A stretch of 21,924 nt of DNA, from IMG/VR virus record IMGVR_UViG_3300031766_000083, positions 1 through 21,924 of that record; one strand, 5' to 3'. How positions within the stretch are numbered: position 1 is the stretch's first letter; the number at the start of each line of letters is the position of its first letter. Origin of the DNA: a virus. This document shows positions 7,559 to 21,555 of the stretch, one piece after another. The position numbers and the translations under genes were made by a program. The notes under the pieces are model-generated. The model worked only from the letters and a program-made list of their open reading frames with translations, was not told the origin of the DNA and ran no database searches.

Positions 7559-7728
7559 GATTCACCTACCTTAGTGTCCGTGAAAAAGCGCAGTATGATG
7601 CCGGCTAGCGATACCGCCCCTGCGGACAGTGCTGCCTGTTCAGATTCTGGGATGATAACCCCTGTGCCGGCTAAAAGAGCGTATAGCAAGCCCATACCCA
7701 TTACTACTATCGTTTTATACCCTTTCAT
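7555..7728 (-). CDS. Holin-like two-helix membrane protein
   Basis: A 57-residue protein translated by hand: start ATG 7728-7726, stop TGA 7557-7555. Residues 6-26 (TIVVMGMGLLYALLAGTGVII) and about 33-49 (ALSAGAVSLAGIILRFF) form two hydrophobic segments separated by a short PESEQ turn, with a basic N-terminus (MKGYK). That matches the layout of small class II-type holins or pinholins with two transmembrane helices. An AAAGGA ribosome-binding site lies about 6 nt upstream. The gene sits between the spanin-like and lipoprotein/endolysin genes, and its stop overlaps the next start (TTGA). The membrane topology is seen directly; the holin role rests on size, topology and neighbours. Confidence 0.75.
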   Translation of the reverse strand: MKGYKTIVVMGMGLLYALLAGTGVIIPESEQAALSAGAVSLAGIILRFFTDTKVGES

Positions 7729-7741
7729 TATTTTTCCTTTT

Positions 7742-8170
7742 TCACATTTGAGCTTTTAAATAATCGACTTCCCGCTTGAGAGATGTCAGGTGCAGTTCAT
7801 AGCGGTCTCTGTCTTCGTAGTATATTTCAGGGACGTCGGGGTTTCGTTCGATAACCCGTTTAACACTGGCTAGACTCTCAGTGGCGTTTTCAATTTGATA
7901 CTCTGTTCGATCTATCCGCCTAGAAACTTCTGAGGCAAGATAATTTGTGTTCATCTGCTCCATTAAGTCGTCAAGTTTATCTTTGACGTGGTTTTCTTCG
8001 TCTAGGTGTTCCTCTCTGTGATCTTCAAAATAAGAGTTTGCTTCCTCTTCGTGAAGTAAAACATAGCTCCCTATTGCGGTCGATAATATAAGAAAAAACC
8101 AAGCGCAATGTTTCACTGCTACTCTATTTATTAACCCTTCTCCGTGGAGTTCTTCGATAATGCTATTCAC
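7742..8170 (-). CDS. Single-TM coiled-coil protein, i-spanin (Rz-like) candidate
   Basis: A 142-residue protein with a short cytoplasmic-type N-terminus (INRVAVKH), one transmembrane segment at about residues 23-39 (AWFFLILSTAIGSYVLL), then a highly charged helical body to the end. The body has two coiled-coil-like runs, about 43-75 and 79-140. That is the architecture of inner-membrane spanins, which span the periplasm and pair with an outer-membrane lipoprotein; one lies two genes downstream. The start is GTG (8170-8168), supported by a GGGGAAG ribosome-binding site 5 nt upstream. It begins the lysis cluster. An alternative is a Rap/LysB-like coiled-coil accessory protein. There is no sequence-specific family match. 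Confidence 0.65.
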   Translation of the reverse strand: MNSIIEELHGEGLINRVAVKHCAWFFLILSTAIGSYVLLHEEEANSYFEDHREEHLDEENHVKDKLDDLMEQMNTNYLASEVSRRIDRTEYQIENATESLASVKRVIERNPDVPEIYYEDRDRYELHLTSLKREVDYLKAQM

Positions 8171-8187
8171 TTCTACTTCCCCTGCGT

Positions 8188-8673
8188 TTACACGATACGA
8201 CGAATTACAACCCTAACTAATTTTTTCAGTACCCCTCTGGCATCGGCTGCGGTTGTTACGTTCGCATCCCACCACGCGTTATACTCCGCGTTTGTCATAG
8301 CTTTTAAGTTATGTATGACGCTGTCTCCTGCTATTTCTGTCTCTAGGTCTTCTAACCTTTGTACCTCCGCCGCTGCTTCTGCTTCTGCTTCTAGCTCTTC
8401 TGCTGTTTTGTTGACTATCTCGTAAGTTACTTTAGTCGTTTTATCGCTGGGGTCAGGAGTGAGAATTTCATCGCCAAATTTTTCATGGCTTTGGAGTTCC
8501 TGCCCTACAGGGGTAAGCGGCCAGTATTCTATGTCGACGTGGTCGTGGAGCGTTAGCTGCTCTATATCAACTACCGATTGAAGGTTCCGCAGGGTTTCCA
8601 CGCCTAACCCCCGCATTTTCTTAGGTGGGTGTTCGCGTGTCGCTGTTAATGTTCTTGTGTTGACTTTGGCCAT
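8188..8673 (-). CDS. Tail-fibre-associated protein of unknown function
   Basis: A 161-residue protein directly downstream of the beta-propeller gene, its ATG overlapping that gene's stop (TAATG). Residues 1-80 look beta-rich. A TYEIVNKTAEELEAEAEA stretch (about 83-100) starts an Ala/Glu helical segment. That arrangement resembles the C-terminal parts of tail-fibre-associated or assembly-type proteins, in which a strand and a charged helix follow a fibre gene. The end is basic (LKKLVRVVIRRIV). I recognise no domain. Translational coupling to the preceding gene suggests the two products work together, possibly as chaperone and receptor-binding protein. Confidence 0.65.
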   Translation of the reverse strand: MAKVNTRTLTATREHPPKKMRGLGVETLRNLQSVVDIEQLTLHDHVDIEYWPLTPVGQELQSHEKFGDEILTPDPSDKTTKVTYEIVNKTAEELEAEAEAAAEVQRLEDLETEIAGDSVIHNLKAMTNAEYNAWWDANVTTAADARGVLKKLVRVVIRRIV

Positions 8674-9563
8674 TACGCAAAATCCCCCAGTAAAACTGCT
8701 TGGTGTATTATGTTACCGCCGATGAGCTTAAAAAATCTTCGGCCGGTGTCTCCTATCCACATAGCATTGCCGGCAGACCCGCCGATTCCTGAGTGGTTAA
8801 AGGGTGTGACACTTGTTTCGCTAATGCTCGCCACGTCGAATCTGTTGTCCATGAGATACGTATAAACGAAAGGCGATCCGATAGCGAACATCTCATACCC
8901 GTTGGGGTCGAAGTGTATACCCTCCCGCCCGCCAATGGAGTAGTTTGTTACGTACGTCGCTGTGGAAATGTCCCAAGGGGTGTCCATTGTGTAAGTGTAA
9001 ATGTCGTCGTTTGTGTCGCCAAACACCCAAAGAGTCAGCCCGTCTGGAGCCCAACGCATAGACTCTGGTGCGCCATCTTCAGAGCTTATGTCTAACGTCG
9101 CCTCGACGGCACTAGCAGTGCTTAAATCCCACGGCGTGGCAAGGGAGTGCTGCTCGACTTTATCTCCTGTCCCGTACGCTAAGTACAGTTTCGTCCCGTC
9201 GTCGCTAAGAATTATTGCCGCGCATAACGTCGAAGACCCATCCACTTTTTGCCCTGTGCCATACGCCGCTGTGGTTATGTCCCAAGGGGTCGATAGGTCG
9301 TACCGTCTAGCACCCCCATCCGCAGCCACGGAGTCATAATCAGCCATGTAACAGTATTCGCCTGTAGGGTCGAAAACCATGTCTTTTACTAAGTTCTCCC
9401 CTTGAGTAGTCGTGAAGCTTCCCGCGCTGGCGTTAAGAAAATTGGGGAGCCCGTGATACCAAGGAATCAACTCTACGACAGTAGGGCAGACAGGGGCCAC
9501 GCCCGATCTGTCCGGCACGCCTAAAGCCCTGAATTTACTGCCTATCGGAGTCGGCCTACTCAT
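8673..9563 (-). CDS. Beta-propeller-like virion protein, probable receptor-binding/tail fibre component
   Basis: A 296-residue protein with repeated blades. A T-P-W-D-(I/L)-(S/T)-T-A motif occurs near residues 92, 143 and 195, with a degenerate copy (NRFDVASIS) near 240, giving units of about 45-52 residues. Each unit also has a F/W-x-P-x-G-x-x-(L/Y) strand (FDPTGEYCYM, LSDDGTKLYL, WAPDGLTLWV, FDPNGYEMFA). Similar repeat proteins are common among phage tail and receptor-binding genes. It overlaps the upstream gene by ATGA and the downstream gene by 1 nt. Residues 1-50 are non-repetitive and may attach it to the particle. Receptor binding is inferred from place and fold. Confidence 0.75.
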   Translation of the reverse strand: MSRPTPIGSKFRALGVPDRSGVAPVCPTVVELIPWYHGLPNFLNASAGSFTTTQGENLVKDMVFDPTGEYCYMADYDSVAADGGARRYDLSTPWDITTAAYGTGQKVDGSSTLCAAIILSDDGTKLYLAYGTGDKVEQHSLATPWDLSTASAVEATLDISSEDGAPESMRWAPDGLTLWVFGDTNDDIYTYTMDTPWDISTATYVTNYSIGGREGIHFDPNGYEMFAIGSPFVYTYLMDNRFDVASISETSVTPFNHSGIGGSAGNAMWIGDTGRRFFKLIGGNIIHQAVLLGDFA

Positions 9564-9976: not shown

Positions 9977-10948
9977 TTAAAATGATACTGCTGTTGTTTG
10001 CATGTTAGCTAAAGTTAGTGCGGCTGTTAAGGTTATCGCCCAGTCCGCGTAAGTGCCTTCGCCGATAGCCATAGCTACCGACACTTCAAGCGCTCCTGTG
10101 CCCGCGTCGTAGGCCGTTACAATGCCCGACATATACTCGTCGGCTGCTGCCCCAGTATACGCTATTTTCACTGAGTGCCCGGGTAGAAAGTCTTTCCCCG
10201 TCTCTATGGTTAAGCTCTGCGCGCCTTTGTCTATATCCAGAGAGGTAGTGGACGTGCCTGTGGTGCCTGCGGCGCCTGCGGCTACTGCTGCTGCGGCTGC
10301 TTCTGCGCTAGCTGCGGCCTCTGCTGCACTAGCCGCCGAGGCCGAGGCAGCTTGTAGCGCTCCGGTCTCGTTCTGGTATACAGCCGTTAATTTAGTCCCT
10401 GCGGCGTATGACGTGGCCAGTGTGACCTCGTTCAGTACCGCGTCGTAAGTGTACTCGTCGTCTATAAGCAGCCGACCGCGATCTATGCCAGCGCCGGTCA
10501 GGTACATGGAGGCGCCTGCTACCACCTCAACAAACGGCACAACCGTCTGGAGCGCTGCAAGGGTTACCGTCTCTTCAAATGCGCCTAAACTGTTACTTGT
10601 GGTAACGCTGTACCATGCGCTGTCGCCTACGTCCCAGATTTCTAGGCCGTTTACGGTGACGCGGATTCTGTCCACCCCAGTAACTGACACTCGGTAATCC
10701 GCAACGGCGGGTAGATAAGCGCCTGTGCGTGCGTCAGATGCGAAAGAAGCGGCTGGGAAAGCTGCCGACCCGTCTGCCAAAACCAAAGGCGCCAACATAC
10801 CGCCGTTGCCGTTACGGCTAAGGCTAGCCGTCAGTGCCGCCGCTATATCAGGTAGGGTAGTATTAGCCCAGTCCGCATCGATAAGCGTATCGACTATTAC
10901 GGGGTTTCCTGCAACCAGTGTAAACGTGCCATTTGAATTACGTGGCAT
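9977..10948 (-). CDS. Tail fibre protein
   Basis: A 323-residue protein. The N-terminus (MPRNSNGTFTLVAGNPVIVD, then a DADWANTTLPDIAAALTASL segment and LSRNGNGGM) is a recurrent virion-attachment module of podophage tail fibres. Residues ~105-195 look beta-rich. Residues ~198-225 are almost pure Ala/Ser/Glu and should form a trimeric helical stalk, followed by a beta domain to residue 323. The ATG follows an AGGAGA site. It lies after the internal-virion genes and before three genes of the adhesin/lysis end, as in T7-like and related phages. The body is short, so host recognition may be shared with the propeller protein downstream. Confidence 0.85.
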   Translation of the reverse strand: MPRNSNGTFTLVAGNPVIVDTLIDADWANTTLPDIAAALTASLSRNGNGGMLAPLVLADGSAAFPAASFASDARTGAYLPAVADYRVSVTGVDRIRVTVNGLEIWDVGDSAWYSVTTSNSLGAFEETVTLAALQTVVPFVEVVAGASMYLTGAGIDRGRLLIDDEYTYDAVLNEVTLATSYAAGTKLTAVYQNETGALQAASASAASAAEAAASAEAAAAAVAAGAAGTTGTSTTSLDIDKGAQSLTIETGKDFLPGHSVKIAYTGAAADEYMSGIVTAYDAGTGALEVSVAMAIGEGTYADWAITLTAALTLANMQTTAVSF

Positions 10949-14140: not shown

Positions 14141-14973
14141 TAGCTACCTCCAGAATAGGTTTCTGCTATCGTTTGAACATCAGGCTTAAGCCTCTCTTGT
14201 TCGTTCAGTGAAAAATTACGTTTGGCTAGCGTCTCTGCTATCTTCTTCTCGCGCAGAGCGTTAGCCGTAGCCGCGGCTCTGGAACGTTGATCAAAAGACT
14301 GCTGTTCAGTCCGGCGGTTAGTATCCCAAGCAGTGTTAGCCTGGCGGAAAGATTGACTGTCCTCTGCTCGGCCTTCAGATGTAGCTCCCATACGGGCCAT
14401 TTCGTAAGCATCGTTTCGGCCAGTGTTGAATAGCTCCATTTCAGATTGATATTGTTGGTCTCCAGCGGCTAAACCCCGCCCACGAAGTCGCAACTCTAAA
14501 GCTTGTCTATCCTTCTCGAACTTAGGGTCTAAACGGCGTACTGAACGCCCGTATGAGTCATCTTCGGCTCTTTGCCTGTTAGGGCTGGCCCAGTTAAACT
14601 CGCCAGTTCGGGCTGCCTCTGGGCCTTCTCTATACTCGCCAAACGACCCCCAATCTACCGGCGCGCTCATTTCTTCTGCTATGCGCGGACTTAAGTTAGC
14701 GGATAAGTCAGCTCGGGACGTGGCGTTTTCCAGTTCAGTATCTAACAATCCTTGTAGCTGAGGTGTCAATGTCTCAGTTTGATTCCACGTAGTAACTGGT
14801 TCGCCAGTAGCAGGATCGATACCTTGCTCTGTTTGCCAAGCCACATTGCCAAACGCGTTAGACTGGTTCGGCCTGTTAGCATAGGTTTGAGTAGTAACAG
14901 CTTCTCTGCCGTATTCACCCTCTACCTCTGCTGCGCCTACTACGTCTGTTGGTCTGCTGCTGCCTTTACCCAT
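14140..14973 (-). CDS. Conserved podophage virion-module protein (internal/DNA-transfer type)
   Basis: A 277-residue hydrophilic, helical protein. The N-terminal third has a TYANRPNQSNAFGNVAWQTE segment followed by a WNQTETLTPQLQGLL motif. I recall this Y-A-N-R-P-x-Q-x-x-x-x-G-x-x-x-W pattern in uncharacterised structural proteins of podophages, placed before the ejection proteins. The rest is Arg/Glu/Gln-rich helix (LELRLRGRGLAAGDQQYQSE; a run of DNAYEMARMG). It overlaps its neighbours by 1 nt on both sides. It lacks a membrane segment. Function unknown; packaging inside the head with the neighbouring proteins is the simplest guess. Confidence 0.7.
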   Translation of the reverse strand: MGKGSSRPTDVVGAAEVEGEYGREAVTTQTYANRPNQSNAFGNVAWQTEQGIDPATGEPVTTWNQTETLTPQLQGLLDTELENATSRADLSANLSPRIAEEMSAPVDWGSFGEYREGPEAARTGEFNWASPNRQRAEDDSYGRSVRRLDPKFEKDRQALELRLRGRGLAAGDQQYQSEMELFNTGRNDAYEMARMGATSEGRAEDSQSFRQANTAWDTNRRTEQQSFDQRSRAAATANALREKKIAETLAKRNFSLNEQERLKPDVQTIAETYSGGS

Positions 14974-15404
14974 TACGCTGCCTCTGCTTTTTCTAAGTAT
15001 GGACAGTTATTTCTAGTTAGTTCCATAAGTACGTAGTCTACACCGCGTGTAAACCCACCTTCAATAACTGTCTTAACCGTCCAGCCCATATGTTTATTTA
15101 GTTTAAGGGCTTTTTTATTGTTTGCTGGCACCCAGCCGTAAACAGACTGCATACCTTTATCGTTAAAAATGAAATCGCAGCACACTTCCATAAACGTATG
15201 ACGCAAAGCCATAGGATCTACAATTATCATATGGCATTGACAGCTTGTTCCCGTAAAATTATCTGCCAGTGCCGCTGCCACTATAGCTTTAGTTTCGGAG
15301 TCTATAGCCACTATGCCCAGCGTATCTTCTACGCATAGCACCGACGTATGAAGCTTAATAAACCCCCAATCTGACGCTTTAAAATCTCTAAATTCCAGTC
15401 TCAT
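14973..15404 (-). CDS. GNAT-type N-acetyltransferase inside the virion gene row
   Basis: A 143-residue protein from ATG 15404-15402, which overlaps the upstream TGA as ATGA; a longer frame reaching 15509 exists but lies inside the upstream gene. The fold signature is GNAT: an N-terminal MRLEFRDFKASDW strand-helix, a central CHMIIVDPMALRHTFMEV strand-helix (motif A region, without a clear R-x-x-G-x-G pyrophosphate loop), then VYGWVPANNKKALKLNKHMG, the typical motif B with N-x-x-A, and a closing VDYVLMELTR strand. Similar phage GNATs are frequent in podophage structural modules. Substrate unknown: it may acetylate a virion or host protein. The family call is good, the activity unproven. Confidence 0.8.
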   Translation of the reverse strand: MRLEFRDFKASDWGFIKLHTSVLCVEDTLGIVAIDSETKAIVAAALADNFTGTSCQCHMIIVDPMALRHTFMEVCCDFIFNDKGMQSVYGWVPANNKKALKLNKHMGWTVKTVIEGGFTRGVDYVLMELTRNNCPYLEKAEAA

Positions 15405-17056
15405 ATCATCGGCCCACCCACTGTATAGATAAGGTCCCAGCCTACTAGCCGTGTACGAGTACGTGTGCGGCCTCTGGTAGCTATAGCCACATAGCGGCCA
15501 GAGCCCCACGAACCGCCGATAGACGGATAACTAGAGTCTCTGGAAGAGCCCCAAATAGCCTCGTCCCATTTACTTATGCCCGACCCGCTCTGACTCCAAA
15601 GGCCGAAAAGTGAGTCTACTAACATTTCGGTTTCGGTGTTTATTCCCTCGTTTATGTTGAAGTCGAATTTACACTGCGAAATGTGAGTAGGTGGTGTGTT
15701 AGCCAAAAAATCAGGCCTTATCAAGTTAGGCTGTTTATACAGCCCTGGAGTCTCCAGAGCGCTAAAAGCCGTAAGAATAGAAAGTTCTATCTCTGCGCCG
15801 TTTGAACCGTCTGTGTTAGCCGTTAATTTGAAATCATCTACCGGCACGTCCATACGCATAAGCCGGTTATCTGCGGTGCCTATAAACACGGAGTTACTCC
15901 ATGAATCGAAAGCTATCATGGGCACTCCGCGCCACAGCCCCCACCCTCTAACTGCTAAATTATAGTAATACTGTATGGGTTCTGTAGAGCCTATAGTGGG
16001 GGTAGATATTAATATGCCGCCTTCGCTGGGTATATTAGCTATCCCCCAGCCAGCTAGGCCTATTTTGGTCCGCATATCGTCACGTATCAGGCTAGTTACT
16101 TTTACTGCGATACTTGATTGATCAGCCTGTAAGGCGTTTGAAGCTACACCTTTCAGCAAGTCTGTCATGCTGGTAAGGCCATAAGACGATAACAGGTATA
16201 ATTCCCCGCCTTGTTCAGTGCCGAAACGCGGCGTAGAAGGTATCTCGCCTATAAAATAGCTGCCTACTATGCCCCACGTAGAGTCTTCAGGGTCCAAACC
16301 ACCATAGACAATAACATCCCCCGCGTGACCTACCGCCACAAGGTGATCGTCTGAACCATCCCCGCCGTCTACTGTCCAGTTAAATATGCCATCCAGTGTA
16401 CCGCCGTGCTTTAATTTAGATCCAAAAAAGAACTCCGTAGCCGCTCCTGTGACGGCGCCTATGGCTAAATACCATGCAGAGGTACTGTCTTCTTCAATAA
16501 ACCATATTCGCTCTTTATGGACCACTACAAACTTAATATCGGCTATTGTAGGGCCGGTTATGCCTGTAGCCTGCGCCCATACGCCTGCGTCATACGAAAA
16601 TAGCCCGTTTACTGCATCAGCGTAAAAGAGAATTGTATCCCCAGCATCGGTAACGTAATGAGCGTAGCTACCATATCCAGCATTGCCGGTTACATCGCCA
16701 AACGCTACTGCCAGTGTGGGTGCGGTATCAAAATCTATATCTTCCCAAATACCTTCATTAGTTATGGCAAAAATTTCATCGGCGGTGCCGTCAGGACTTT
16801 CATAAGGTAAGACAGTTCTTACTCCAGCTCCGGCACCATCGTCTATATCGATAGTCCACTCTCTGTACCCTTCGCGAACCTTCATACCGTATTCATAAGG
16901 GGTAAGGTTGAACGTGTAAATGCACTGGTTAAGATTTTCAGAACCGACAGCTTGGCGTGTGTCTATACCGCCCATAGGTGCAGGATACCGAGTCACTTTA
17001 TGGGCTCGGCGTTTAGCCTGTTTAAGACTGCTTCTGGCTAGTGCACCGCCTATCAT
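15401..17056 (-). CDS. Tail hub/stabilisation protein (P22 gp10 / T7 gp12-like, beta-propeller)
   Basis: A 551-residue protein. The N-terminal segment (YPAPMGGIDTRQ, then NLTPYEYGMKVREGYREW) is a hallmark of phage proteins that plug the portal-adaptor channel. The body reads as successive four-stranded beta blades with alternating hydrophobic and Gly/Asp turns (GIWEDIDFD; GLFSYDAGVWAQA; LYLLSSYGLTSMTDLL; SVFIGTADNRLMRM), consistent with the beta-propeller tail accessory protein of P22 gp10 and T7 gp12. It is expected to assemble below the adaptor and help hold DNA in the head. ATGA overlaps link it to both the adaptor upstream and the GNAT downstream. The class assignment is good; exact homology was not tested. 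Confidence 0.78.
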   Translation of the reverse strand: MIGGALARSSLKQAKRRAHKVTRYPAPMGGIDTRQAVGSENLNQCIYTFNLTPYEYGMKVREGYREWTIDIDDGAGAGVRTVLPYESPDGTADEIFAITNEGIWEDIDFDTAPTLAVAFGDVTGNAGYGSYAHYVTDAGDTILFYADAVNGLFSYDAGVWAQATGITGPTIADIKFVVVHKERIWFIEEDSTSAWYLAIGAVTGAATEFFFGSKLKHGGTLDGIFNWTVDGGDGSDDHLVAVGHAGDVIVYGGLDPEDSTWGIVGSYFIGEIPSTPRFGTEQGGELYLLSSYGLTSMTDLLKGVASNALQADQSSIAVKVTSLIRDDMRTKIGLAGWGIANIPSEGGILISTPTIGSTEPIQYYYNLAVRGWGLWRGVPMIAFDSWSNSVFIGTADNRLMRMDVPVDDFKLTANTDGSNGAEIELSILTAFSALETPGLYKQPNLIRPDFLANTPPTHISQCKFDFNINEGINTETEMLVDSLFGLWSQSGSGISKWDEAIWGSSRDSSYPSIGGSWGSGRYVAIATRGRTRTRTRLVGWDLIYTVGGPMI

Positions 17057-17811
17057 GCGGGTGTACCTCCGCCATAGCCAGTGTCAGGTATATTTCGACG
17101 GTCCAGATAGGGATACCCATAGCCGGTACGTCCTGCATTAAGAATAGGCGCTCCTTTATCGGTGCCGGTGAGAAAACTGAAAATTTGATTTAGGTCGGCT
17201 TGCGCTTTAGTCGTGTCGAAACCGCCAGACTCTAGGTATTTCACCTTCACCGCGCGTGTGATCAAAGTCTTATCGAACAGAGGTATATTGCTAGCCTCTG
17301 TTACTTGCTGTACGTAAGCACCGTCACCTTTGAGCACCCAAGCACAGCTTATATACTCAAAATTTAAGTCTAAGCTAACGTAGTCGGCGCCCGCGGCGGG
17401 AGGTTCTGGGAAGATATTGAATTTACCCTGTGATATGCGAAAACTGGCGTACAGGGTGTTTTGTGCCAGATCACGGCCCTTTAAATAAGTCCAATCTTGA
17501 GCCGATAAAGGGCCGCCCATAGGGACGTTATTTGTACGATCCCATTCAGTCTGGTTAAGAATATAGCCGAAGTCGGCGGGCATATCGTACTCGCCCGAGT
17601 CTCCGGCGGCGGAGGTAATGCTATGCGATCGCACCAGGTGTTCCCACGGATAAGCCTGCATGAGCTCTTCACCGGCCGTATTAAGCAGGTATCGAAGCTG
17701 GATGAAGAACGGGTCTTCACTTGATAAAGGCGCCTCTATAGGTGCTATACCAACTTCTGCGGCTACTCTGTTGAGTATTTCCGAGGCTACTATTGTGGTG
17801 TTCACTGACAT
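17053..17811 (-). CDS. Head-to-tail adaptor (connector) protein
   Basis: A 252-residue protein. Residues 1-60 are helical (TIVASEILNRVAAEVG; a LLNTAGEELMQAYPWEHLVR segment). A core follows with GEYDMPADFGYILNQTEWDR and GPLSAQDWTYLKG, a pattern found in podovirus adaptors of the P22 gp4 / T7 gp11 class, then alternating strands (FRISQGKFNIFPEPPA; YVSLDLNFEYISCAWV). It should form a ring beneath the portal. The place between capsid genes and the gp10-like protein fits. An AAGGT site precedes the ATG at 17811, and its TGA overlaps the next ATG. Confidence 0.78.
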   Translation of the reverse strand: MSVNTTIVASEILNRVAAEVGIAPIEAPLSSEDPFFIQLRYLLNTAGEELMQAYPWEHLVRSHSITSAAGDSGEYDMPADFGYILNQTEWDRTNNVPMGGPLSAQDWTYLKGRDLAQNTLYASFRISQGKFNIFPEPPAAGADYVSLDLNFEYISCAWVLKGDGAYVQQVTEASNIPLFDKTLITRAVKVKYLESGGFDTTKAQADLNQIFSFLTGTDKGAPILNAGRTGYGYPYLDRRNIPDTGYGGGTPA

Positions 17812-17827
17812 AGCTCATACCTTAGTT

Positions 17828-18586
17828 TTATGCGCGACGTTTTCGTGAGGCGCGTTTCTTTTTAGCTGCTGGAGCCGCGGCTACTGGCACTGCTGCGCCT
17901 TCTACTTTTGGCTCAGCTTCGGAAGTAAGACTGCCCACGTTTTCGTTTGGGGGTATTTCAGACTCTTCAGCTACCTGTACTTGCGTATCGGTGCTATCCA
18001 ATGAGCTAGACAGGTCAACACTAACTATATCCCCCTTACCGGCTTCTGAAGCGTTGTTAGCTTCTAAAAGCTGCCGTACCTGCTCTTTCAAGGTAGCTAC
18101 TTCCTGTTTAAGCTCCGTTTTTTCGCGGTCTTCGGTCTCAGCGTCATTATTTTCTAGCCACTTAATTGCTTGGTCACGTAACGCATGGCCGTTCATAAAT
18201 TTTTGCACGTTACTGTCTTTCATGCTGGCCAGCTGCTCAACGGTTTTTACATTCAGAAAAGAGAACTCTTCTGCTTGGGTCCGCGTAATTTTTGGCCACT
18301 CGGAAAGGGGCATGCCCTCTGTAGGCGGCTCCATACGCTTCTCAAAAGCCTCTAAATGGAGTGGAAAACGCATTTTATCCGCGTGAGTAGCTGGCCGGCA
18401 GGCTTGTACGTCCCGCTGGCCGGGAACTCTAATTTCAATGTAGATTTTCTCTTTAAAAACCGGCCTCCCTTGTTTCTGGCTTTCTAGCTTGTTTTCCACA
18501 TTTTTATAGAAAAAACGCACCATTAGAGACTTATCAGCCTCTACCGTGTTAGCGAAATCTTCGTGGTTGTATTCTGCCTGTTGCAT
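17828..18586 (-). CDS. Virion-module protein with HhH-like helices, coiled coil and basic tail
   Basis: A 252-residue protein between the capsid block and the adaptor. Residues 20-85 hold a conserved-looking beta domain (LMVRFFYKNVENKL, then GRPVFKEKIYIEIRVPGQRD and RPATHADKMRFPLHLEAF). Residues ~110-145 (FLNVKTVEQLASM to ALRDQAIKWLEN) resemble a helix-hairpin-helix pair. Residues ~150-178 form a coiled coil (KTELKQEVATLKEQVRQLLE). The C-terminus is Ala-rich and ends in a Lys/Arg cluster (KKKRASRKRRA). I recall the N-terminal pattern in unannotated phage head-module proteins. DNA contact through the HhH and basic tail, or a scaffold-like role, are both possible. An AAGGAA site precedes the ATG. 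Confidence 0.65.
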   Translation of the reverse strand: MQQAEYNHEDFANTVEADKSLMVRFFYKNVENKLESQKQGRPVFKEKIYIEIRVPGQRDVQACRPATHADKMRFPLHLEAFEKRMEPPTEGMPLSEWPKITRTQAEEFSFLNVKTVEQLASMKDSNVQKFMNGHALRDQAIKWLENNDAETEDREKTELKQEVATLKEQVRQLLEANNASEAGKGDIVSVDLSSSLDSTDTQVQVAEESEIPPNENVGSLTSEAEPKVEGAAVPVAAAPAAKKKRASRKRRA

Positions 18587-18607
18587 AACTTTTTCCTTTT
18601 CGTAGGG

Positions 18608-19963
18608 TTAGAGTAAAAAACTATTATCTAGGTATTCTTGCATATCGGCAACTTCCGGTTCTGTTAATTGCCTGTCAAATACGATAAGTTGGGCTATGTA
18701 GCCTACCCAAGGGGTCGCACCCGAAATATTGACAAATAAAGAAGCAAAGTCCCAATCATTGCTTCCACTGTCTCCAACAACAGAGTTATCGCCAGCCGTA
18801 AATTTGCTTGATGAGTTGCCGTTTGCCTGAAAGGTAAACAGCTTTAATCCAGTAGAAAAAGGAAGTGTTCTAATAGTGCTACCGTTACTCCAGTCAAAGT
18901 TATTTGAGTCAGAGAAATCGGTGAACATAAATATTCTTTCCCCGGATTCGGACTTAGCATCAAATAAAACCTGATCGGCAGAGGGAGCATCAATAGGCTT
19001 TGCCACACAAAAAACCGTAAAGGGGTTTGCTATCGTTTGACCTACGCTAGTTTCCAACCCAACACTACCAATACTATGCACAACGCTATGGCCTGTGTTC
19101 TGTATGAAGGTGTTGCCGTTGAGTGTCCAGACCTCTCCCGTAGAAGAGCTTGGGAATTGTGTATCACTACTTCTATTCACATAATAAGCAGCGTTAAAGT
19201 CTACTGCTAGAGTGCTTGCGTTATAAAGCTCTACTTGACCGATGGTGCCATTTAACAAGTTCGCCGTACCAGATTGGCTTGAGCCTACCTCTATGACGTT
19301 TGAACTGTTAAATATAGTCCCAAGAGTAATAGTTATCGTATCGCCTAGCTTAGTCCAGTTTCCGCCTCTATCCGTGGACGTATAGAAAATGCAAGTCGTG
19401 GAGGTCAATTCAACCTTAATAGATATTTGCTGCCCATCTGAAGCGGGCACAACGACCGTGGAGTCGGCAACATTAAGACTTGCCCCGTCATTCGACCATG
19501 CAAATCTTAATGTTCCGGCGACTGAGTTTTTCACGCCCAGATAGAATGCCTCTTGAGAAGAGGCATCCGTTTGGCTTGTAATCATAGTGAAGCCAGCAGG
19601 AGTCCAATCATCTAACGCCACATCGTAAGCAATGATTTTATTGAGAGTTGACATGTCCTGAGCAGGAGTAGAAACATAATCCCCGCTAGCGCCATACATC
19701 AAGCACGCATCACTAATCGACTTCTTAAGATTGGCTCCTGTGCCTACAACTACATCCAAATCATAAACAGAGCCACCTGTGACTTGATTAGTCATCGATG
19801 TGACTGAAGAGCCTAAGCCTTGGTGATAGTTTGCAATGCTGGCGTCTATAGCGACAGCTAAGGTACCGTCGGCTTCGAAAGGAATGCCGTTGTGTACACT
19901 GGCTGGCGCGTTTACACCGTTGGTATACCCGCGTTTAGCCCAATTTTGTAGTAGTGCGCTCAT
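18608..19963 (-). CDS. LamG/concanavalin-A-like lectin-domain protein between capsid genes
   Basis: A 451-residue secreted-looking but signal-less protein, probably with two jelly-roll domains. The first spans about 75-250 (NGTIGQVELYN near its end). The second spans about 300-450 and closes with a typical LamG_3 strand-helix, YIAQLIVFDRQLTEPEVADM. Such domains bind glycans and occur in virion decoration or adhesin proteins. It lies just behind a strong terminator, so it is uncoupled from the capsid genes, and has only a weak ribosome-binding site (GAGACGG). Five sampled 60-base lines (18721-19020) count about 41% G+C against roughly 45-58% in sampled neighbouring lines, suggesting separate acquisition. 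Fold: fair confidence. Virion location: inference. Confidence 0.7.
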   Translation of the reverse strand: MSALLQNWAKRGYTNGVNAPASVHNGIPFEADGTLAVAIDASIANYHQGLGSSVTSMTNQVTGGSVYDLDVVVGTGANLKKSISDACLMYGASGDYVSTPAQDMSTLNKIIAYDVALDDWTPAGFTMITSQTDASSQEAFYLGVKNSVAGTLRFAWSNDGASLNVADSTVVVPASDGQQISIKVELTSTTCIFYTSTDRGGNWTKLGDTITITLGTIFNSSNVIEVGSSQSGTANLLNGTIGQVELYNASTLAVDFNAAYYVNRSSDTQFPSSSTGEVWTLNGNTFIQNTGHSVVHSIGSVGLETSVGQTIANPFTVFCVAKPIDAPSADQVLFDAKSESGERIFMFTDFSDSNNFDWSNGSTIRTLPFSTGLKLFTFQANGNSSSKFTAGDNSVVGDSGSNDWDFASLFVNISGATPWVGYIAQLIVFDRQLTEPEVADMQEYLDNSFLL

Positions 19964-19979: not shown

Positions 19980-20012
19980 CTGTAAAACTAAAGGCACCTC
20001 GAAAGGTGCCTT
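19980..20012 (-). terminator. Intrinsic terminator after the capsid/decoration genes
   Basis: AAGGCACC (19991-19998) pairs perfectly with GGTGCCTT (20005-20012) across a 6-nt loop. Read leftward, the stem is followed by TAGTTTTA. It sits 9 nt after the stop of the decoration-like gene and before the LamG-like gene, so it should cap the high-abundance capsid message. Confidence 0.7.
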
Positions 20013-20020
20013 AATCTACA

Positions 20021-20485
20021 CTAAGTGGGGAAGCAACATATAATCTCTTTAGCAGATATGTCGTCAGCGATAGCACAGATATGATCTGTAACCAGGGCTG
20101 ATACGTCTAAAGTGCCGTCAGTTGCCCCTACGGGAGTAAGTGCGTTACCGTCTGCGCCCGCAGTAAGTGCGATAGTCAGAGTTGCAGGGCCAGTAACTTG
20201 CACCCAACCGTACTCACCATCTGCCAAAGCTGCCTGTAGCACGCCCGCGCCAATATTTACACTGTCTGATAGATCAGAAGTGACTACGTTGTCTTGACTG
20301 CCGCCAGCACCTAGAAAATAGGCTACTTCGCCAGCTACGCCGGCTACAGCTGCGGTGGCTGCGTCGTACTGCACGTATCGATAAGTTTTTTGTGGTCCTG
20401 TGGTGCCAATGTCTCCGGCGATAGTGCCTAGCTTAAACTTGGCCTCAGTATCTACCTGAGTAGGGTCTATTCCGATAATATTCAT
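20021..20485 (-). CDS. Capsid decoration/cement-like protein
   Basis: A 154-residue protein immediately after the major capsid gene. Strand-rich and Ala/Gly/Thr/Val-rich: YRYVQYDAATAAVAGVAGEV, then VNIGAGVLQAALADGEYGWV, a G-x-Y-G-W-V-Q-V-x-G segment that I recall in small head-decoration or head-fibre-type proteins next to phage capsid genes, then an acidic C-terminal half. It has its own AGAAGGT ribosome-binding site and a terminator directly downstream, consistent with high expression at a stoichiometry near that of capsid. A role on the capsid surface is inferred from position and composition. Confidence 0.65.
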   Translation of the reverse strand: MNIIGIDPTQVDTEAKFKLGTIAGDIGTTGPQKTYRYVQYDAATAAVAGVAGEVAYFLGAGGSQDNVVTSDLSDSVNIGAGVLQAALADGEYGWVQVTGPATLTIALTAGADGNALTPVGATDGTLDVSALVTDHICAIADDISAKEIICCFPT

Positions 20486-20559: not shown

Positions 20560-21555
20560 TTACCCGTTAGCGTCGTATCGGCCTTGAAACATTCGGCCAG
20601 AAGACGTCAAATTACCCGCCCAGCCAAGAATCTGCACTTCTGCATCTTGGTTAGTAGAGTAGCGGCGGTTTGGAGACAGGCTAACCATGTTACGGTCAGC
20701 GTGTGGGCGATAGTGGATATAGTTAGTGTTCAAAAAGAACCCTGTACCCGCTGGCGTGCCACTGCCTGAGTTACCGTTATAGATACCGCCGTCCAAACAG
20801 ACATCGGCGTCCATAAACTTAACCGTCGCAAAACCTGCATCGGCCTGGTTCGTGTTGCTGAAACGTTGCTGAGTCTGAAGAGACTCAATATATGTATTCC
20901 AGACAGTAGTATCTGTCATAACTAGGTCAGGGCGATCTTGACCGCGTACCAGAGAAGCCCAAAGCGCGTTCCAGTACCCCTGAATTTTAGTTGCATCCAG
21001 TCCGTTAGCGGCTGTCTGGTCACTTACGGCGTTCTGCCAGAAAGTAAACACGTTGCCGTCGATACCACCATAAGCAGCCGCAGTAGGATCTACAGGTACG
21101 GCGGCTTCTAAACCGTCGATCTGCTTACCGCCTGCCGCTGTGCCGTCTGAATACAGACCGCCAGTGATAAGGTTAGCCATTGTGGCTTCCGCCACTTCAA
21201 GTCGGGCTTCCATAAGGTCGATCATTCGTTCTCGGCCGCTGTTTTGCAGCTGCTCAAGACCTGAAATGATAACCGGTACGGCCGCCTGCTTGATATCAAA
21301 CTCAGCTGCACTGATAACGTCAGATACACCCACCGGAAGCAGGTCATACCCCGAATACCAGCCGGCATTAGAGTTTTCAGCAAAGGAAAGTTCTTGCATG
21401 ATCTTGTGACCACCACTAAAAGTTTTAATGCGACCTTTAGTTTTCAACTTGCTCAATAGAGCATTATTGTTGGTTACGTTATCAGCGATTTTGCGAGTGC
21501 GAGACTCGATAGTAGTAGCGAGAATGTCGCTAATGTTGGCATTTGCAAAAGACAT
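20560..21555 (-). CDS. Major capsid protein
   Basis: A 331-residue protein of the HK97-fold-type phage capsid class, judged by length, composition and order. The N-terminal arm (SFANANISDILATTIESRTR) leads into KTFSGGHKIMQELSFAEN. A spine-like helix with a membrane-free hydrophobic pattern follows (ERMIDLMEARLEVAEATMAN, then LITGGLYSDGT), then a DLVMTDTTVWNTYIESLQTQ segment and the usual closing GRMFQGRYDANG. I recall this overall pattern in podophage and temperate siphophage capsids. A strong AGGAG site lies 7 nt before the ATG. The 163-bp region upstream carries an inverted repeat and a possible promoter, suiting a highly expressed late gene. No prohead protease or scaffold gene is visible here. 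Confidence 0.88.
   Translation of the reverse strand: MSFANANISDILATTIESRTRKIADNVTNNNALLSKLKTKGRIKTFSGGHKIMQELSFAENSNAGWYSGYDLLPVGVSDVISAAEFDIKQAAVPVIISGLEQLQNSGRERMIDLMEARLEVAEATMANLITGGLYSDGTAAGGKQIDGLEAAVPVDPTAAAYGGIDGNVFTFWQNAVSDQTAANGLDATKIQGYWNALWASLVRGQDRPDLVMTDTTVWNTYIESLQTQQRFSNTNQADAGFATVKFMDADVCLDGGIYNGNSGSGTPAGTGFFLNTNYIHYRPHADRNMVSLSPNRRYSTNQDAEVQILGWAGNLTSSGRMFQGRYDANG

Follow-up and report, generated by a model that had tools for sequence, protein, structure and literature searches.

The modular display of adhesion domains on phages is already known. Hoc-type decoration proteins (T4 Hoc, T5 pb10, N4 gp17) carry adhesion-type beta domains, are bound to the capsid and add little to its stability, and in other phages capsid-bound proteins enhance cell-surface binding via carbohydrates (both from excerpts of PMC7602432). 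Modular Ig-like display domains confer surface adhesion on gut phages, according to excerpts of PMC13370021. Accessory or inserted genes also occur in P22-type late operons, as is the case for Dec of the P22-like phage L and for the ant moron (passages of PMC2629481 and PMC8022706). The passages of PMC2629481 place a variable moron between the homologues of genes 16 and 9 and report none elsewhere in the morphogenetic clusters; the Dec gene is described there as the rightmost of its genomes.

The window analysed here (21,924 nt; IMG/VR record IMGVR_UViG_3300031766_000083, positions 1 to 21,924) is part of a phage genome, with its structural genes on the minus strand. By capsid protein, the nearest annotated phages are Stenotrophomonas phage BUCT555 (65.7%) and the Myxococcus phages Mx9 (58.4%) and Mx8 (56.7%). 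Since excerpts of PMC10386132 place Mx8 in the podovirus structural lineage related to P22, this kinship suggests that the window phage is a podovirus. Unlike the P22-like Dec and moron genes, the accessory gene studied here lies in a slot between capsid and tail genes. At this locus a putative display site and a shared tag can be seen together with close relatives whose tags are joined to different parts, and because all of these are visible, the swapping of adhesion domains becomes directly testable in one lineage.

The accessory gene and its signals

The features of the region are listed below; L-numbers denote the loci of relatives.

20560..21555, minus: major head protein (phrog_9953 match)
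20021..20485, minus: 154-aa capsid-side gene, without family match, decoration- or cement-like by position only; first slot boundary
19991..20012, minus: intrinsic-terminator-like hairpin AAGGCACCTTTCGAGGTGCCTT, then TAGTTTT, after the 154-aa gene; -13.5 kcal/mol
18608..19963, minus: accessory gene in question (ORF 19963-18608, ATG start, 451 aa), chimeric; proposed virion-surface adhesin
19799..19963, minus: residues 1-55, slot tag at the N-terminus; contains a single unit of the 24-aa repeat (residues ~24-47; repeat HMM)
19154..19714, minus: residues 84-270, first of the LamG/ConA-like pair; L086 (53-58% identity) and L087 (38-40%) have relatives
19034..19153, minus: residues 271-310, linker, nearly the same in L087
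18611..19033, minus: residues 311-451, second domain; Laminin_G_3 match over residues 312-439, below cut-off
17828..18586, minus: 252-aa gene (phrog_20268, unknown function); second slot boundary
17053..17811, minus: SU10-adaptor-like / phrog_6013 tail protein (SU10 E 6e-5, below cut-off)
15401..17056, minus: phrog_5107 protein (PHROG match)
14973..15509, minus: GNAT-type ORF (family match)

An earlier note on this DNA had placed the gene between the capsid and adaptor genes; its actual flanks are the 154-aa and the 252-aa genes. It has a G+C content of 44.7%, compared with 49.4% for the window, 47.7% and 50.8% for its neighbours at 17828-18586 and 20021-20485, and 49.6% for the capsid gene. 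Thus, the gene is AT-richer than its neighbours, as had been claimed, and the value of about 41% given with that claim is true of the last domain alone (41.4%). The tag has 50.9% and residues 84-270 have 44.9%, so the base composition is a mosaic along the chimera, the tag stretch being short (165 nt). The deviation in G+C is modest; 3.4% of the sliding windows of gene length are as AT-rich (n=412, with the gene's own windows included), and at least equal AT-richness is found in three other genes of the window. In synonymous codon use the gene is the worst fit of the 23 genes, with a z of -3.27 (next -2.92 and -2.06).

The ribosome-binding site was confirmed as weak (Shine-Dalgarno -3.1 kcal/mol, 4th weakest of 23), and the strong terminator previously reported upstream is present as the hairpin with a T-rich tail at 20012-19991. 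Note that the terminator scan of the whole window was at chance level (13 sites, compared with 14.7 +/- 3.9 expected), so this hairpin rests on its position and strength. Upstream of the gene, a scan of the minus strand for the consensus promoter type, by which a phage promoter could be missed, found no promoter-like site, and a hairpin scan found no terminator after it. Repeats flanking the gene were also sought as marks of an insertion mechanism, and none was convincing.

A variable slot behind the capsid gene pair

Relatives' loci were fetched chiefly by the capsid protein: the best 80 loci of a larger number, and 51 via a second capsid query, four of them already included. Six further loci came from genome contigs, five were annotated phages and the others were drawn by other queries. 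Removal of near copies reduced the 145 loci with a capsid match to 108 distinct ones, of which 84 reach the 252-aa gene; in the remaining 24 of 108 (L088 among them) the slot is cut by the contig end and can't be judged. Slot counts refer to the 72 of the 84 distinct closed loci whose capsid identity is at least 60%. The first ORF after the capsid gene was taken as the resident gene, which may itself be an insert in L030, L054 and L120.

In 35 of the 72 loci, one or more further ORFs of at least 80 aa separate the first capsid-side gene from the 252-aa gene; 37 loci have none, and the longest slot measures 6.4 kb (L071). Together with six empty-site relatives, this supports the accessory insertion proposed in the earlier note. 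In gene order, the accessory gene is not at the same place in all relatives, and its codon use does not match, as seen from the z score above. The insertion is confirmed; the gene is not, however, the one-off moron that had been supposed, since slot and tag are both recurrent and it is one occupant among others.

Terminators were scored by a loop of 3-8 and a T-run, with -10 kcal/mol or lower. By this score, 27 of 83 loci have a terminator behind the first capsid-side gene, compared with 6 of 72 behind the 252-aa gene and 3 of 71 behind the adaptor gene; most loci have none by this criterion, which misses inverted repeats visible by eye in L014, L048 and L051 (GC-rich). The terminator is equally common in slots with an insert (11/35) and without one (14/37) and is rare after the 252-aa and adaptor genes, which is why we assign it to the end of the capsid pair and not, as had been thought, to the accessory gene. 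It may be likened to the leaky terminator behind the T7 capsid gene. In 30 of 83 distinct loci, a scored terminator-like hairpin was also seen no more than 60 nt downstream of the major capsid gene itself.

The AT-richness of the accessory gene had been read as a mark of insertion. As a group, however, slot genes elsewhere show no excess of AT over their flanks (n=35, of which 20 are lower in G+C; mean -0.003; Wilcoxon p=0.71), so the window gene does not exemplify a rule here. At most 21 of the 75 slot ORFs gave Pfam matches at E 0.001, and one of the 75 matched GTA_holin_3TM, which is not an adhesin family. In BUCT555 (L001, 9878-10966), the slot contains small ORFs and an annotated putative holin and endolysin; the slot thus also takes lysis genes.

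Empty sites and exchange between close relatives

The slot is empty in six relatives (L014, L016, L044, L048, L051 and L053), in which a homologue 58-69% identical to the 154-aa gene is followed by the 252-aa gene after 66-101 nt; among them, only L016 has a scored terminator there. The non-coding borders regarded in the earlier note as the gene's own do not look like its own, since an intergenic stretch is kept at the same place in relatives that lack the gene. The 154-aa gene is likewise flanked by non-coding borders. DNA similarity between L014 and the window restarts at 18607, the base after the stop of the accessory gene, and both share the leader CCCTACGAAA before the 252-aa gene, so the gene borders look inherited from the empty site. 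In L055, L018, L013 and L007, similarity restarts at 18577 to 18610.

Exchange is seen between close relatives. Contig names assign L008 and L010 to one metagenome, and the two share 99.2% identity over the capsid gene and onwards to the end of the LamG-like domain, tag included; the tag protein of L008 then has 117 extra residues compared with L010, after which 96% identity resumes. In L077, the first gene and the tag gene are replaced compared with L073, between flanks that are 93.6% and 91.9% identical, and similarity restarts where the tag gene stops. The window's own virus is represented a second time by L088, which matches the window without a difference over 2113 bp; the L088 contig breaks off at 19812, near residue 50, where the tag ends. 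This end may be due to chance or to the population branching there; it would be expected if the population differs beyond 19812.

A repeat tag found in the slot

When the 451-aa protein was compared with the capsid-bearing relatives by tblastn, only its first 50-77 residues matched (114-177 nt in the later set). This tag is built on a repeat of 24 residues with the consensus HNGLPFTADGRLAVTLDGAITHYH. The window tag has one clear unit (E 2e-9 with the repeat HMM, whose seed contains this very unit) and is 41% identical to the tag of L019 and 34% to that of L009. Among all loci at that stage plus the window, the repeat profile found 32 frames at E 0.01 or less. For 29 of these the position is downstream of the capsid gene, and upstream of the 252-aa gene whenever the locus extends that far; the remaining three are the window gene and its copies in the other orientation.

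The tag is present in 18 of the 108 distinct loci, a count that includes L088 and the close pairs L009/L095 and L108/L120. L020 was left uncounted (E 2.7e-7 with the first tag HMM, absent from the final E 0.01 list), as were L049 and L069 (E 0.3 and 0.7). Of all bases in the distinct loci, 15% fall within slots, with open slots taken as far as the contig end, and in this sample, which was drawn mainly by the capsid gene and so favours its neighbourhood, the tag was found only in the capsid-side slot. It also lies in the slot in the nine loci drawn by tag queries, of which only L095, L097 and L153 are new contigs. Two tag queries of annotated phage records (E 0.01 and E 1) found no tag, and none of the papers listed in the literature searches describes the slot or the tag in its title or the opening of its abstract.

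The position and partners of the tag vary. It stands N-terminal to LamG-like (L008 family, below cut-off), Ig-like/Hoc-like (L019) and FN3 (L054) domains, C-terminal to Ig/HYR (L007) and cadherin-like (L013, below cut-off) domains, and alone in L071, L077, L015, L065 and L067. Moreover, it adjoins different kinds of first capsid-side gene.

An AlphaFold model of the tag, made with 13 tag sequences, reached a mean pLDDT of 79.8 and a pTM of 0.73, with block means above 90 for residues 21-60. Each repeat is predicted to contribute one longer strand and one small hairpin, in regular succession; note that the model shows a four-unit relative as a single chain, and the window protein has one unit. 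Foldseek found nothing in the PDB for this model (best E 1.5), and VIA-align gave 0 of 144 chains with Z >= 2. For a predicted structure, this absence does not prove a new fold. Because the model matches nothing in the PDB, the tag is a candidate virion anchor of structural interest. A single PDB match of the A4 tag profile (E 0.68) was set aside. In a viral library, the model matched three uncharacterised proteins of uncultured phages (E 2.5e-6, 2.5e-6 and 1.9e-4), with TM by query of 0.79, 0.74 and 0.66.

The LamG/ConA-like module

The LamG-like character noted earlier has weak backing, in that the match to Laminin_G_3 (PF13385; E 1.2e-4) falls short of the curated cut-off (22.7 compared with 27.6 bits; 23.0 for the C-terminal part alone). 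As in ConA-like domains of this family, the last domain spans profile positions 16-151 of 151; unlike them, it scores below the curated cut-off and its jelly-roll (ConA) fold is putative. AlphaFold gave a poor model of the window protein, with 3 sequences only and a mean pLDDT of 34.4. A PDB sequence search with the single window protein gave no match, and no Ig family was found in it at E up to 10.

Near relatives of the module, as judged from sequence identity, are in unrelated phages. The phage L086 has genes for a tail sheath, a tape measure and a baseplate, and carries a relative of the first domain in a protein of 620 aa. L087, which has another head-protein type, encodes the first domain (Laminin_G_3 at E 3.2e-4, below cut-off) and the same linker, and its contig breaks off after the beginning of the second domain. 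A search of genome contigs for the module gave 26 pattern matches and no relative, and tblastn found the LamG part in none of the capsid-bearing relatives, 24 of whose 108 loci, L088 included, are truncated in the slot. The sole annotated-phage match to the LamG part is the gene after the tape measure gene of Streptomyces phage Chymera (two records; 28.5% over 53% of the query, E 8e-4), which was too weak and remained unused.

In L086, the gene at 7656-9515 is of a DUF2612 baseplate type, with the LamG-like domain and a GTA head-spike fibre domain (NF048003) between the DUF2612 parts. The latter domain is above cut-off (61.4 compared with 36 bits) and adjoins the same LamG module; it was not found in the window protein. 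Two PDB matches of the A2 profile were set aside: the Tako8 designed propeller, with weak repeated matches, and baseplate protein gp89 (E 0.04), whose match, judged by eye, is to the DUF2612 stretch that L086 brings into the profile.

A proposed virion-surface adhesin

On balance, we think it somewhat more likely than not that the product of this gene in the variable slot is a virion-surface adhesin, optional and modular, docked by its tag and bearing a paired LamG/ConA-like module. The slot would form part of an Mx8-like (P22-type podovirus) structural module. From its position behind the capsid gene pair and terminator, the gene would be expressed by read-through with the tail genes, at a level below that of the capsid. 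The tag (the first ~55 residues) may dock the protein on the virion, at the head shell or the neck, and the LamG/ConA-like pair would probably bind a polysaccharide of the cell surface or biofilm. Adhesion could then change by swapping of the tag's partner or of the whole slot content. The earlier proposal of a glycan-binding coat protein is plausible with regard to a glycan-binding-like domain; mucus adhesion in particular is without evidence. The resemblance to Hoc-type proteins extends to a slot relative with the same tag, L019, which matches Hoc-like PHROGs. Unlike Hoc, the window protein has no Ig family, its proposed anchor is a 24-aa repeat and its binding to the capsid is putative. From the gut-phage adhesins, set out in the excerpts of PMC13370021, it differs in being LamG-like and not Ig-like and in belonging to other phages; evidence for animal surfaces is absent for the window gene, and the excerpts do not mention the tag. 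Going further, and more tentatively, we suggest that the tag, a beta repeat in its model, might be a dedicated docking plug that works at either end or alone and clips domains as diverse as LamG, Ig, FN3, HYR or cadherin onto Mx8-like podoviruses, all from one slot beside the capsid genes.

Another possibility, which we hold to be unlikely though worth weighing, is that the tag is a fibre element, either a trimerising shaft or a chaperone-like segment, and that the protein binds receptors as a tail-associated fibre or spike instead of decorating the head. Behind the slot come the tail genes, individual slot ORFs have matches to a tail spike and a tail protein PHROG, GDSL lipase/esterase families are matched in the slot of L071, and the short regular beta repeats of the tag model would suit a fibre. 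However, the stand-alone tag ORFs of 64-117 aa (L030, L065, L067, L071, L077 and L015) would be odd for a shaft, the partners of the tag include Ig-like and Hoc-like domains, and the ORF at 9977-10948, without family match, looks by eye like a separate fibre gene. The head- or neck-docked adhesin remains our preferred reading.

The other two alternatives concern the origin of the gene and its site of action. It could be a long-standing resident, its low G+C being due to amino-acid composition and not to recent transfer, and its first-position G+C, the lowest of the 23 genes (0.465), does point partly to amino-acid content. The codon use of the gene at 8673-9563 deviates almost as much (z -2.92), and slot genes are not AT-rich in general. 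Yet the LamG part is absent from the capsid-bearing relatives by tblastn, those with cut slots being unjudgeable, and we regard this explanation as improbable. We give still less credence, indeed very little, to a classical moron, expressed independently and acting in the host or lysogen with no role in the virion. Its presence is patchy, with presence or absence at the same place (35 loci with and 37 without a further ORF among the 72, and the empty sites), and its base composition and codon use are atypical, the former not being a rule for slot genes. Against this, the scans described above detected neither a promoter of its own upstream nor a terminator after it, and the relatives of its parts are virion-type proteins.

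Neighbouring genes

Some observations concern the flanking genes. The label of phrog_5107 (15401-17056) is amidase; the place of this gene after the adaptor-like gene suggests a tail-tube or head-closure protein, and its Mx9 relatives are annotated 'head closure'. The amidase label is probably misleading. As called, the GNAT-type ORF overlaps the preceding gene by 109 nt, and its true start is probably further in. Finally, L147 and L151 carry a 154-aa gene 62-64% identical to that of the window, whereas their capsid proteins show only 36% and 34% identity; judging from these comparisons, the capsid-side gene seems to travel on its own.
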